The notes under the pieces are model-generated. The model ran no database searches. It was not told where the DNA came from and worked only from the letters and a program-made list of their open reading frames with translations. Of a stretch of DNA of 64,000 nucleotides, positions 26,471-32,392 are shown piece by piece. Positions within the stretch are counted from its first letter, which is position 1. Each line of letters opens with the position of its first letter. The DNA is from Nitrospirota bacterium. GTDB lineage: Bacteria; Nitrospirota; Nitrospiria; SBBL01; JAADHI01. Position numbers and translations under genes: made by a program. Location: contig JAJDBX010000074.1 of assembly GCA_029261135.1 (NCBI GenBank), positions 1-64,000 on the forward strand. The letters run 5' to 3'.

Positions 26471-26548
26471 GGTCCCATCGTCTAGCCTGGCCTAGGACGG
26501 CGCCCTCTCAAGGCACAAACACGGGTTCGAATCCCGTTGGGACCACCA
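26471..26548 (+). tRNA. tRNA-Glu (CTC)
   Basis: The cloverleaf can be folded by hand. The acceptor stem is GGTCCCA/TGGGACC, with an A discriminator and a genomically encoded CCA. The D arm has a long loop. The anticodon loop is CTCTCAA with anticodon CTC, which reads GAG. The T arm is ACGGG-TTCGAAT-CCCGT. The anticodon stem GCGCC/GGCAC holds one C-A mismatch at its second pair, which is unusual for a functional tRNA and worth checking against the read data. Confidence 0.95.
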
Positions 26549-26685: not shown

Positions 26686-27342
26686 CTAGGCCCTAAGGGA
26701 AAGAAAGGTGCCGCGGGAGCGATGAAATTTAACCTTAAGGAAATGCGCGCCATTTAAATAGCTGCGTTGATTCTTTGATGTTGTTTCGAAACAATGCCGA
26801 ATGCTCGCGCTCCCAGACCAGTCCGGGCTCTCAATTCGAATCGTGGTTAAGGGGGCAATCTGTTCCCTTGAAATAAATCGCAGGCCCGCCAAAGAAAGAT
26901 CGATCAGTTCGCCTTGATACAGGTCTTCACTACGCTTGCTTGCATAACGTAGCATTCCCTTCTTTTGGACTCTGAGCCCATGCCGACGATCTTGTCTGGC
27001 GGAAATCGACACCGGGACGCGAACCTCCTCTTGCCTCCCATGATCGGGCCATTGGGGATTCATTGGATCGGCTCGACCCTTCATCTGGAATTTTCGTGAG
27101 CCGATTGGCAGACTGTGTCGCCCCTTCCTAATGATCAGGCGTAAATCGTATTCGGCCCGTTTTTGGGGATCACGAAGCGTTTCAAAAGCGGAATTAACTA
27201 AGGTCGCCAAAGCGTGGCTTCCACCCAAATCCGGGTGAACCTTCAACCTTCCCATCAAGGTTCGGTAGCTCGCCTTAATTACCTCCGCCGAGGCATCCGG
27301 CTGAATTTGGAGAATACGATAAAAATTCCGTCTATTTTCCAA
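26686..27342 (-). CDS. DnaJ-PilZ fusion protein
   Basis: A 218-residue two-domain protein. An N-terminal J-domain (about residues 5-70) carries the essential HPD tripeptide (residues 36-38) and the helix III/IV segment NSAFETLRDPQKRAEYD. It is joined by a linker of about 40 residues to a C-terminal PilZ domain. The PilZ domain has both parts of the c-di-GMP site: RHGLR (R120-x3-R124) and DLSLAG (D148-x-S150-x2-G153). I infer that c-di-GMP controls recruitment of DnaK. It lies 292 nt downstream of a riboswitch-controlled lytic transglycosylase on the same strand. There is no signal peptide, so it is cytosolic. Confidence 0.88.
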   Translation of the reverse strand: MENRRNFYRILQIQPDASAEVIKASYRTLMGRLKVHPDLGGSHALATLVNSAFETLRDPQKRAEYDLRLIIRKGRHSLPIGSRKFQMKGRADPMNPQWPDHGRQEEVRVPVSISARQDRRHGLRVQKKGMLRYASKRSEDLYQGELIDLSLAGLRFISREQIAPLTTIRIESPDWSGSASIRHCFETTSKNQRSYLNGAHFLKVKFHRSRGTFLSLRA

Positions 27343-27634: not shown

Positions 27635-28333
27635 TTAGGCTGAGGTCGCGTCTTCGTCCCCTGGGTTTGGCGGTGAAGCCGGGGCTTCCGGCCCGGAGTC
27701 GAATGCCATGAATTGCTTGTAGGTGCTGAGGATGCGAGATGCATACTTTTTGGGCATGACGCGACGCCGTGCCTGAATTTTGGAGACCCGCGAAGGCCCA
27801 TAGTTATATGCGGTGAGTGCGATTTCGAGTTGACCAAAACGCTTATGAAGCTTCGATAGGTAGTGCGTCCCAAGCTTGATATTCGAATGGGGGTCGAACA
27901 AGGTTTCTTTGCCCTGCCATGGAATATTAATCGCTGCAGCCAGAGCTTGCCCTGTCGCCGGGAGAATCTGCATCAGGCCCAGCGCGCCTTTTCTCGATTT
28001 TGACCAGTTGTAAAAGGAGCTCTCTTTAGCCATCAGGGCGAGGATCAATTCAGGATCGTAATCGTAGGCCACACTCTCTTCGTAGATCAGGTGCGCCAGC
28101 TGGACTTGCGTTTCTTTCGACAAGCCGGTGTGATACTTTTTCAAAATTGCCATAATTTTCCGATGCTTTAAATCCTGTAAGGCCTGTTGATGCTGATCAT
28201 AGTGTGTCTGAAGCGCAATTAGCCTTTGATCCGCACTTTGACCGGTTCCCGAAACGGAAAGAAAGAGCACAGAAATTAAAACGAATAAAGTGATCAGATA
28301 AGCCCTACATTTTTTTATCGCTCGATTGTTCAT
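27635..28333 (-). CDS. lytic transglycosylase, SLT (Slt70) type
   Basis: A 232-residue exported peptidoglycan lyase. It has a signal peptide (ITLFVLISVLFLSVSGTGQ, residues 13-31), a helical linker, and then a goose-lysozyme-like SLT domain (about residues 85-210). The catalytic Glu is in LMAKESSFYN. Typical family motifs follow: SRKGALGLMQILPATG, NIKLGTHYLSKL and TAYNYGPSRV. It would cleave glycan strands in the periplasm, leaving anhydro-muropeptides. The start is set at ATG 28333, because an in-frame extension to 28444 runs through the terminator and riboswitch. The tail is proline- and acid-rich. Confidence 0.93.
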   Translation of the reverse strand: MNNRAIKKCRAYLITLFVLISVLFLSVSGTGQSADQRLIALQTHYDQHQQALQDLKHRKIMAILKKYHTGLSKETQVQLAHLIYEESVAYDYDPELILALMAKESSFYNWSKSRKGALGLMQILPATGQALAAAINIPWQGKETLFDPHSNIKLGTHYLSKLHKRFGQLEIALTAYNYGPSRVSKIQARRRVMPKKYASRILSTYKQFMAFDSGPEAPASPPNPGDEDATSA

Positions 28334-28349
28334 GATATCGCCTCTAGTC

Positions 28350-28388
28350 AAAAAAATGCCCATTTTCACGCGATAAGAGAAAATGGGC
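28350..28388 (-). terminator. riboswitch-controlled intrinsic terminator
   Basis: On the minus strand, GCCCATTTTC (28388-28379) pairs perfectly with GAAAATGGGC (28367-28358) around an 11-nt loop. ATTTTTTT (28357-28350) follows, only 16 nt before the transglycosylase ATG. The left arm and loop (28384-28371) are also complementary to the 5' end of the riboswitch, so terminator and antiterminator are mutually exclusive. Confidence 0.9.
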
Positions 28389-28397
28389 AAAAAAATA

Positions 28398-28500
28398 ACC
28401 ATTTCGGCAGCCCCGCTGTCCTTATTCGGCATTTGTTCCGCCAACTTAAGGACCGGTCGCTTTGCGTCATCACCATACGGTGATTTTGCTCTTATCGATT
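28398..28500 (-). promoter_or_regulatory. c-di-GMP-I (GEMM-I) riboswitch
   Basis: The aptamer core matches the class-I cyclic di-GMP riboswitch: AGAGCAAAATC, then ATGACGCAAAGCGACCGG, then ACAGCGGGGCTGCCGAA. The P2-type hairpin is ATCACC-GTAT-GGTGAT, and the P3 stem pairs GTCCTTA with TAAGGAC. The GTAT loop is not the usual GNRA tetraloop, so tertiary docking may differ. An in-frame extension of the transglycosylase ORF covers this sequence, which could cause a wrong start call. The unit is promoter-aptamer-terminator-gene. Confidence 0.93.
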
Positions 28501-28528
28501 AGCTGTATGTAAATATTCTTTGTTGATA

Positions 28529-28556
28529 ATCATATCATGGGGTCTGGATTTGTCAA
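28529..28556 (-). promoter_or_regulatory. sigma-70 promoter of the riboswitch transcript
   Basis: On the minus strand, a consensus TTGACA (28556-28551) and TATGAT (28534-28529; five of six consensus bases) are separated by 16 nt. Transcription would begin around 28522, about 20 nt before the riboswitch. Confidence 0.75.
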
Positions 28557-30427: not shown

Positions 30428-31207
30428 TCACTCTTGATAGATAATGGTAAGCCTCCTAAGCAAGGCATCTGCGACTCTTTCGTCGATGTTTGCACTGACT
30501 TTGTCCGTGGGCTCTTTGATTTCAAACATCCTTTTTAGGGCTTCAATGGCTTCTTGATGTTGTTTGTGTTTTAGGTAACTTTGAGCCAACTCCAAATGGT
30601 GCATTGTTCGATTTGGATTAATTTTAATGGCTTCTTTTAGAAGATCAATGGATTGTTCAATTGATCCGCCCATCCACCCCGGTACTTTCCGATATAATAC
30701 GGCCAAAATATGGCGGGCGATATCGTTTTCTGGATCAAGCGCCAAAACCGTGGACATCTCTTTTTTAATGGGAGAGATCAAGAATAAGGATTTTAAAACT
30801 CCCTGCGTTTCTCCCTTGCGGCCATAGGCAATGCCCAGCATCAAATGCCCACCGACGCTCTTTGAATTGATAGCAATCGCTTGATTCGCATAATCTTCCG
30901 CGATTTGGTAGGCAAGCAAACGTTCTTTTTTTTGGGTGAGTTGGTCTCCCCGCCAACGATAAGAACGGGAAAGTTTCCAGAGCGCGATATCATCTTCGGG
31001 ATTATTTTTTATAATTTTCGCGTAGAGTGCGATGGCACGCTCTGCATTTCCGGATCGATTTCGTGTTGAATAAATCTGCTCAGCTTCTTTGTAGAGATCC
31101 GCCTTGTCTTGGGCATATCCTGGTTCAATGCAGAAAAACACAATCAGAAGGGCACTTAAGGTTCTTCGCGTGAAGGAAGTGCGGATTGTGGCTGAGGTCT
31201 CTACCAT
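30428..31207 (-). CDS. exported TPR protein
   Basis: A 259-residue protein with an N-terminal signal peptide (TLSALLIVFFCIEPGYAQ), probably periplasmic or lipid-bound. It has about four to five tetratricopeptide-like helical repeats: GNAERAIALYAKIIKNNPEDD, the AEDYANQAIAINSKSVGGH region, a PGWMGGSIEQSIDLLKEAIKINP unit, and the HQEAIEALKRMFEI unit. The arrangement, including the KVPGWMGGS insert, resembles the RMD/TatT-like TPR proteins. TPRs mediate protein contacts, so I infer a scaffold. Its ATG shares its A with the stop of the MltB gene (TAATG), so both are translationally coupled. Confidence 0.8.
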   Translation of the reverse strand: MVETSATIRTSFTRRTLSALLIVFFCIEPGYAQDKADLYKEAEQIYSTRNRSGNAERAIALYAKIIKNNPEDDIALWKLSRSYRWRGDQLTQKKERLLAYQIAEDYANQAIAINSKSVGGHLMLGIAYGRKGETQGVLKSLFLISPIKKEMSTVLALDPENDIARHILAVLYRKVPGWMGGSIEQSIDLLKEAIKINPNRTMHHLELAQSYLKHKQHQEAIEALKRMFEIKEPTDKVSANIDERVADALLRRLTIIYQE

Positions 31208-32241
31208 TACATACTGATCCGCCTCGAAAGATGGACAATAACCAGTGCGTAATGCACGGAGGTATTGTACCGTGTGATGGCGCGAAAATTTTCAAAAAGC
31301 CCGAGCAGTTCTTTTTCTTTGGGGTTGGGTTCAAAATAAGCGAAAGACACCAACTCGTCCAATTTTGCGGGCGGTGGCACTTCAATACCCATATTGAGTG
31401 CTTGTGCGACGGTGAGGGTTTTACGGAAACTGCGTTTGAGTGTTTTTTTGATTTCTGGAGAGTCTTTATAGACTTGAGCCGGGAGATAGAGCAAGCCTCC
31501 CTTGACCCATCCAAATGATCTGAGGTAGTTTGCGACGCTGGCAAAGATATCCTTTTTAGAGGTCCATAAGTTCACTTTTCCATCTTTGTCAAAATCGACG
31601 GCAAACCTTAAAAAGCTGGAGGGAATAAACTGAGGCACGCCAAAAGCACCCGCATAAGAGCTCTTGATTGAGAAGGGATCGAGTCCTTCTTTTCGGCAAA
31701 GTTTAAGAAAGGCGATGATCTCACCGCGATAAAACTTCTCTCGCCGAGGATAAAGGAAATAAGCCGTATTTAAAATATCAAAGGCCCGGTATTTTTCGAT
31801 GCCGGGTTTTCCAAAGCGTGTTTCAACACCCAAGATACTGGCAATGATTTCTTTTTCGACGCCATAGGCCGCTTCAACTTCCGAGAGGAGCTTGTCATTT
31901 TCTTTAAGATAGGCCCGTCCTTTTGTGATCATGTCTTTTTTGATGAAGATTTTTCTGTATTTATGGAAGGGAAGGTGTTCCGCAGGGCGATTAAATTTGT
32001 CAATGATATCTTTTTGAAAAACCACTTTGGAAAATAAGGCTTTTAAGTCATCCGGCTTGAATCCATTTTTTTCGCTCAGCTCTTTCAATAAACCCTGGTA
32101 CTTTGGATGCGCCAAGGGAATCTGCTCAGCTTGAGTCTCCGAATGAGCAGGAAGGAGAGATCCGATCATAAAAAAAGAAACCAGGACAAATAAAAACAAG
32201 TATCGGGTGAAAGGATTTAAAGCAGTTTTTCGGTTTACCAT
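31207..32241 (-). CDS. mltB: membrane-bound lytic murein transglycosylase B
   Basis: An exported lytic transglycosylase (about 344 residues) of the MltB family. It has a signal peptide near residues 15-35 (hydrophobic LFLFVLVSFFMIGSLLP) and then the domain with the catalytic Glu in ILGVETRFGK. Family motifs include SYAGAFGVPQFIPSS and an EF-hand-like VDFDKDGKVNLWTS calcium site. There is no lipobox Cys, so it is probably soluble periplasmic. The start is set at ATG 32241 with AGGAG 7 nt upstream; the TTG just before is less likely. It is coupled to the TPR gene, which may guide it. Confidence 0.92.
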   Translation of the reverse strand: MVNRKTALNPFTRYLFLFVLVSFFMIGSLLPAHSETQAEQIPLAHPKYQGLLKELSEKNGFKPDDLKALFSKVVFQKDIIDKFNRPAEHLPFHKYRKIFIKKDMITKGRAYLKENDKLLSEVEAAYGVEKEIIASILGVETRFGKPGIEKYRAFDILNTAYFLYPRREKFYRGEIIAFLKLCRKEGLDPFSIKSSYAGAFGVPQFIPSSFLRFAVDFDKDGKVNLWTSKKDIFASVANYLRSFGWVKGGLLYLPAQVYKDSPEIKKTLKRSFRKTLTVAQALNMGIEVPPPAKLDELVSFAYFEPNPKEKELLGLFENFRAITRYNTSVHYALVIVHLSRRISM

Positions 32242-32392
32242 CAATAGACTCCTTTTGGGTGTTTTGCTCCGAAGAGTACAATCATACAGGAAGGGCCCGC
32301 GATACGTCTTCCCTGATTCTAGGCATCATAAAACCTGTACGGGGGGACGAAGAGGGCTATTTCTATTCCTAAACCCGAGCGCAATGCCATCG

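Follow-up and report, generated by a model that had tools for sequence, protein, structure and literature searches.

The leader of a lytic transglycosylase gene in the genome of an uncultured Nitrospirota bacterium raises the question of which signal it responds to, and in which direction that signal switches the gene. The locus lies on the minus strand of the window, as we call the 64,000-nt stretch of DNA analyzed here, and belongs to a host assembly of 3.2 Mb that comprises 77 contigs and is 95% complete. The explanation we lean toward, with modest confidence, is an A20 (GEMM-Ib-like) transcription-terminating riboswitch, which most likely binds 3',3'-cGAMP, possibly also some c-di-GMP, and turns the lytic transglycosylase off upon ligand binding.

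The order promoter, aptamer, terminator and ATG had been proposed by a sequence-only reading of this region, and every listed element is present on the minus strand. Sequence inspection and a promoter scan gave a -35 element TTGACA (28551–28556) and a -10 element TATGAT (28529–28534) that is preceded by TG. With 11 of 12 consensus bases and a spacer of 16 nt, this promoter ranks at the top of five promoter-like sites in the 3-kb region, where 4.3 are expected by chance. The paralogous elements L002, L003, and L005 are likewise preceded by TTGACA at a comparable distance. The aptamer (28403–28500) is followed by an intrinsic terminator (28350–28388), recognized from sequence and folding, with a 10-bp stem, an 11-nt loop and 7 U. 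Its stem GCCCATTTTC-loop-GAAAATGGGC corresponds to 28388–28358, while the 7 T of the U tract occupy 28356–28350. A ribosome binding site, AGAGG (28341–28345), is located 8 nt upstream of the ATG (28333–28331) of the gene itself (27635–28333), which encodes an SLT lytic transglycosylase of 232 aa.

That the aptamer is of the GEMM-I type was to be checked, according to the same reading, by a covariance search against Rfam. This search delivered a match to RF01051 at 28500–28403 with 60.0 bits (E 3.1e-9), above the gathering score of 35, and the match spans all 87 model positions. The window aptamer shares sequence and structure with RF01051 GEMM-I, yet differs from it by A20 in place of G20 and by a GUAU loop in place of GNRA. 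The GTAT sequence of the P2 loop had been noticed correctly; it is private to the window copy, while the other group members carry GTAA. Thus the GNRA tetraloop of P2, which docks in P3, is replaced by GUAU in the window and present as GUAA in the other members. From comparison, the P1 helix appears to be formed by AGCUA (28500–28504) and UGGUU (28397–28401) with two G-U pairs. In paralogs its 5' strand reads AACCA or AACUA, and its 3' strand overlaps the second of the two antiterminator helices discussed below. Since GUAU replaces GUAA and P1 holds two G-U pairs, the affinity of the window aptamer may be low.

Position 20 in Vc2 numbering is the ligand-specificity nucleotide. In the cmscan alignment, the RF01051 consensus GGCAAA holds the Vc2 G20, whereas the window reads AGCAAA, hence an A at 28490. 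The window aptamer consequently lacks the G20 of the c-di-GMP type and carries the A20 of GEMM-Ib. In Geobacter, an A20G exchange makes a GEMM-Ib riboswitch selective for c-di-GMP instead of cGAMP (PMC6456294). The Vc2 G20 position was described as one that influences selectivity without acting as an absolute filter, and cGAMP riboswitches as capable of binding c-di-GMP (PMC9262584). Our statements on ligand specificity rest on these two publications. The host genome contains nine RF01051 matches, the window element included, and reading position 20 off the RF01051 alignments divides them into five A20 and four G20 aptamers. The A20 aptamers are those of the window SLT gene (L004), an HDOD gene (L002), a second SLT gene (L003), a cytochrome c and porin-like locus (L005) and an FN3 protein (L007), where the labels porin-like and FN3 are our reading of the sequence and not a Pfam result. 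The G20 aptamers are L001, L006, L008, and L009.

A possible source of cGAMP is encoded in the same genome. Among its 33 GGDEF matches, three show GHxxGS in place of GHxxGD. One of these, the GAF-GGDEF protein L026 (862–2010, plus strand; contig C41:86079–87227 of G000), adjoins secA and combines GHLMGS, and thereby the Ser348 equivalent, with GGDEF; its cross-dimer site is Leu, where canonical enzymes carry Arg. The top PDB match of L026 is 6d9m, a Geobacter GAF-type cyclase fusion (E 4.5e-49), followed by PleD (7e-29). We take 6d9m to be GacA on the strength of its entry title and of the paper on the GacA structure, in which entry 5VS9 is quoted. We therefore regard this GacA-like Hypr GGDEF protein as a candidate cGAMP synthase of the GacA type. 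Next to secA it is conserved across many Nitrospiria families, and all GacA-like loci examined in relatives (31 of 31) possess Ser, GGDEF and a non-Arg residue. A second GHxxGS protein, L037, likewise has Ser and GGDEF. In the FHA-GGDEF protein L031 (1075–1989, plus strand; G000 contig C72:89429–89899), the base-recognition site holds Ser but the motif is GGEEF, a combination that was reported to be inactive for GacA (PMC6456294). If a GacA ortholog is defined by E below 1e-75, 21 of the 37 class genomes that possess one also contain A20 aptamers, compared to 9 of the 230 without, all nine from one family; these counts were tallied from tables and the species are not independent. By family, the association (6/9 vs. 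1/6) is not significant (p 0.12).

Because of A20 at 28490 and the GacA-like Hypr cyclase encoded in the genome, 3',3'-cGAMP appears to be the likelier ligand, possibly together with c-di-GMP. Binding may be dual rather than restricted to cGAMP, since the rest of the pocket and the lower P2 (G21-C22) look canonical. For the same two reasons the ligand originally suggested, c-di-GMP, is probably wrong or at least incomplete.

How ligand binding could control the terminator depends on the antiterminator, for which about 14 pairs with one bulge had been proposed between the 5' strand of the aptamer and the terminator. Of this helix, 9 bp were supported. The strand CGAUAAGAG (28489–28497), which is the ligand pocket strand in the bound state, pairs with CUCUUAUCG (28371–28379), which comprises the terminator loop and the last base of the 5' arm. 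This helix 1 was identified by folding and alignment, and in shuffles the 9/9 pairs between CGATAAGAG (28497–28489) and CTCTTATCG (28379–28371) were equalled by 0.35% of the shuffled terminators. In folds of transcripts of growing length, helix 1 emerges around nucleotide 150 (P 0.64) and reaches P 0.95–0.96 until the 3' arm of the terminator is made; then it falls to zero and the terminator takes over. The AAAAT/ATTTT extension that would complete a single 14-bp antiterminator exists as letters, but was rejected because P2 and a second helix win, leaving it a P of about 0.05 in the nascent ensemble. This helix 2 pairs in the same ensemble as helix 1 and consists of GAAAUGG at the 3' end of the aptamer (28399–28405) and CCAUUUU in the 5' arm of the terminator (28380–28386), where it abuts helix 1. 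The notion that the aptamer 5' strand serves as antiterminator thus agrees with the folding of helix 1, while the second helix comes from the aptamer 3' end.

The terminator starts about 15 nt past the aptamer and both coexist in the MFE structure. At full length, it is favored over the antiterminator by about 4–6 kcal/mol in the window and by 3–15 kcal/mol across the group. Consequently, read-through would have to be kinetic. Folding predicts the layout of an OFF attenuator, with a terminator that is compatible with the bound aptamer and an antiterminator that is exclusive with it; the gene should be OFF with ligand because both antiterminator strands would be claimed by P1 and the pocket of the ligand-bound aptamer. 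Blocking the pocket strand alone fails to eliminate helix 2 in the window fold, so the exclusion of helix 2 by the ligand would rest on P1. One might thus envision that, without ligand, the 5' strand of the aptamer pairs with the emerging terminator loop and its 3' end with the 5' arm of the terminator, and that both helices jointly hold back the terminator until the RNA polymerase has moved past. Once ligand is bound, the binding pocket would sequester the 5' strand and P1 the 3' end, so that neither antiterminator helix could form, the terminator would fold and the lytic transglycosylase would be switched off. The OFF sign suggested earlier for this locus is hence backed, as a prediction, by folding and by related elements.

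Since a search for the same arrangement in related genomes had been recommended as a check, we compared elements of the same platform and found it in at least 11, four of them in the host genome and the rest in G001, G003, G006, G007, and G024. The nine aptamers of the host genome together with these 11 related elements from six genomes, counted before pattern-selected elements were added, rule out a unique or chance arrangement. Before synthesis of the 3' arm, the probability of helix 1 is 0.64–0.97 in 10 of the 11 elements, but 0.01 in G006_b. Folding did not give helix 1 in G006_b and G317, nor helix 2 in G001_PilZ, G006_a, and G006_b. G317 was first counted as a group member by its TTATC loop and was dropped on account of this folding result. 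Both G019 and G317 had been retrieved with a pattern that included TTATC, and their loops are therefore not independent evidence. In an alignment of ten sequences, 91% of the helix 1 cells are paired, compared to 49–70% after sliding by 1–3 columns. At two pairs both partners have changed, among them the pair of position 20 (A-U, G-U, G-C). However, this covariation is only suggestive, as it was equalled by 64 of 500 shuffles, and by 97–118 of 500 with two more elements. Shuffles of single elements other than G317 gave p 0.002–0.15. The terminator-loop columns 149–156 vary less than the stem columns 143–146, which is unusual for a terminator loop. A natural control is provided by 22 further aptamers of the class whose 5' strand is likewise of the GATAA type but which do not belong to the window's family; by inspection, their platforms differ and lack this loop. 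The platform group includes G20 members as well (L070, L085, and L086). One of these, L070, is the element that the PilZ gene of G001 has of its own.

Three other readings of the locus have to be weighed against an A20 riboswitch that is turned off by cGAMP. If A20 is simply tolerated and about 30 GGDEF proteins supply c-di-GMP, the element could be a c-di-GMP riboswitch that is likewise OFF on binding. The RF01051 family is annotated as c-di-GMP-I, canonical GGDEF and EAL domains are numerous in the genome, and the G20 members of the group indicate that the platform works with either base; moreover, the G20 position of Vc2 was described as modulating selectivity rather than strictly excluding ligands, and cGAMP riboswitches as able to bind c-di-GMP as well (PMC9262584). 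This reading has to accommodate that the window and four other aptamers of the genome carry A20 beside G20 ones, in the presence of a GacA-like Hypr cyclase, and we consider it unlikely, though worth keeping in mind. A decayed or weak copy is a further option, in which useful binding is lost owing to the GUAU loop and to a short P1 containing two G-U pairs, and the leader acts as a constitutive attenuator. Indeed, the window copy is the sole group member without GNRA, the paralog L003 of the gene has an intact element, and mutating the tetraloop region of the Clostridioides difficile riboswitch Cd1 abolished binding (PMC9262584). Nevertheless, the window copy has retained the terminator, the two antiterminator helices and every other conserved position, and the aptamer scores 60 bits; decay seems very improbable to us.

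The sign could also be reversed. Then a pseudoknot between the 5' strand and the terminator loop would leave or even strengthen the terminator, and the ligand would release it. Most of the complement of the 5' strand lies in the loop and could pair while the stem stays closed, the completed terminator is in every case more stable than the alternative fold, and the characterized GEMM-Ib switches of Geobacter are ON switches (PMC6456294, PMC9262584). In Geobacter sulfurreducens, deletion of the cGAMP synthase gene gacA lowers the expression of every gene behind a GEMM-Ib riboswitch, and the cGAMP riboswitches there are therefore ON (PMC6456294). With the Geobacter elements of pilM, pgcA/GSU1761, and Gmet_0970 (PMC6456294, PMC9262584), the window locus shares A20, the GEMM-I fold and a GacA-like Hypr GGDEF protein. 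However, it belongs to the phylum Nitrospirota instead of the Desulfuromonadales, and the Geobacter ON platform, in which a terminator arm shares bases with the 3' strand of the aptamer, was not found in the window element: here the terminator is separate, coexists with the aptamer in the MFE structure, and OFF is predicted. Such an arrangement matches the OFF switch Cd1 and not the ON layout of pilM (PMC9262584). Cd1 and the window element have in common that aptamer and terminator coexist and that the antiterminator excludes the aptamer. They differ in that the Cd1 antiterminator was described as the aptamer 3' strand (A strand), whereas the main helix of the window uses the 5' strand that holds nucleotide 20. 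In addition, in most members the 5' arm of the terminator itself pairs with another partner in the nascent fold without ligand. A reversed sign is thus improbable in our view.

Under the favored reading of an OFF switch, the regulated gene would be a cell-wall lytic enzyme. The SLT domain PF01464 of the 232-aa protein scores 95.4 bits against a cut-off of 21.3 (E 2.2e-27), and its PDB relatives are Slt70 and MltC. With these it shares an SLT domain with the ESS motif, while the window protein is short, secreted or anchored, and lacks the long superhelical N-terminal domain of the Slt70/MltC type. The closest named matches of the gene come from metagenome-assembled genomes of Nitrospirota, one of them named as Nitrospiria. 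A20 elements with the window platform were found upstream of SLT orthologs in G001, G003, and G019 and of the host's own paralog L003. In a tree with six SLTs of the order that lack a riboswitch, the five that bear one group together in a single clade of their own (100/100). In G019, which represents another family of the class, the position of the element ahead of the SLT gene is independent of the TTATC pattern. Thus, the association between riboswitch and cell-wall lytic enzyme is conserved. At the scanned loci of more distant SLT paralogs (40–48% identity), no GEMM-I core was found. The target had been called less usual for this riboswitch class; it is not a one-off, and wall enzymes are not without precedent, since a Geobacter GEMM-Ib riboswitch is located upstream of lipoprotein transpeptidases (PMC6456294). 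Several other genes lie close by. Some 3 kb upstream of the riboswitch lies a second gene of the lytic transglycosylase type (31207–32244, minus strand; SLT_2 PF13406, E 1.7e-78). The SLT gene is closely followed by one for a DnaJ-domain protein with a PilZ-resembling C-terminal part (26686–27342, minus strand), and the paralogous SLT gene L003 likewise precedes a PilZ-like protein. A tRNA gene (26471–26545, plus strand; RF00005, 52.6 bits) is located near the locus.

On a broader scale, one might speculate that Nitrospiria possess a complete 3',3'-cGAMP network, made up of a GacA-like Hypr cyclase together with A20 riboswitches, some on ON and some on OFF platforms. In the OFF switch, the ligand-pocket strand itself would be the antiterminator, and cGAMP would thereby repress peptidoglycan lytic transglycosylases as well as an HDOD regulator and an operon for cytochrome c and porin. 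We put this forward tentatively, as a possibility that falls somewhat short of even. If true, riboswitch-based cGAMP signaling would be extended to Nitrospirota, for which we found no such paper in the open-access literature. An A20 aptamer on an OFF platform would then allow the same signal to repress genes, here for wall remodeling and a cytochrome, with a predicted sign opposite to that of the Geobacter cGAMP switches characterized to date. The design of such a switch would be simple, as the terminator loop would compete directly with the ligand for the pocket strand, and the Rfam label c-di-GMP-I would hide a ligand difference that is set by one base. One signal could even act in both directions in this class, because the A20 elements of family f5 have an ON-looking platform. 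These elements (L107, L108, and L101) are tandem A20 riboswitches before fibronectin-type-III-like proteins, and the 5' arm of their terminator is the aptamer 3' strand (GCCGCCA...TGGCGGC TTTTTT).

Aptamers of the GATAAAGGC type in families f6, f14, and f15 (L131–L148, L153–L157) precede mostly FN3-like proteins and are mostly without an obvious terminator. A few of those in f15 are A20, though a GacA ortholog was not found in this family. Finally, the G20 riboswitches L001, L069, L074, L076, L079, L081, and L088 precede lipoprotein-like genes and have a different, OFF-looking platform, where the terminator arm contains GTGGCCC, the complement of GGGCCAC at the 3' end of the aptamer.
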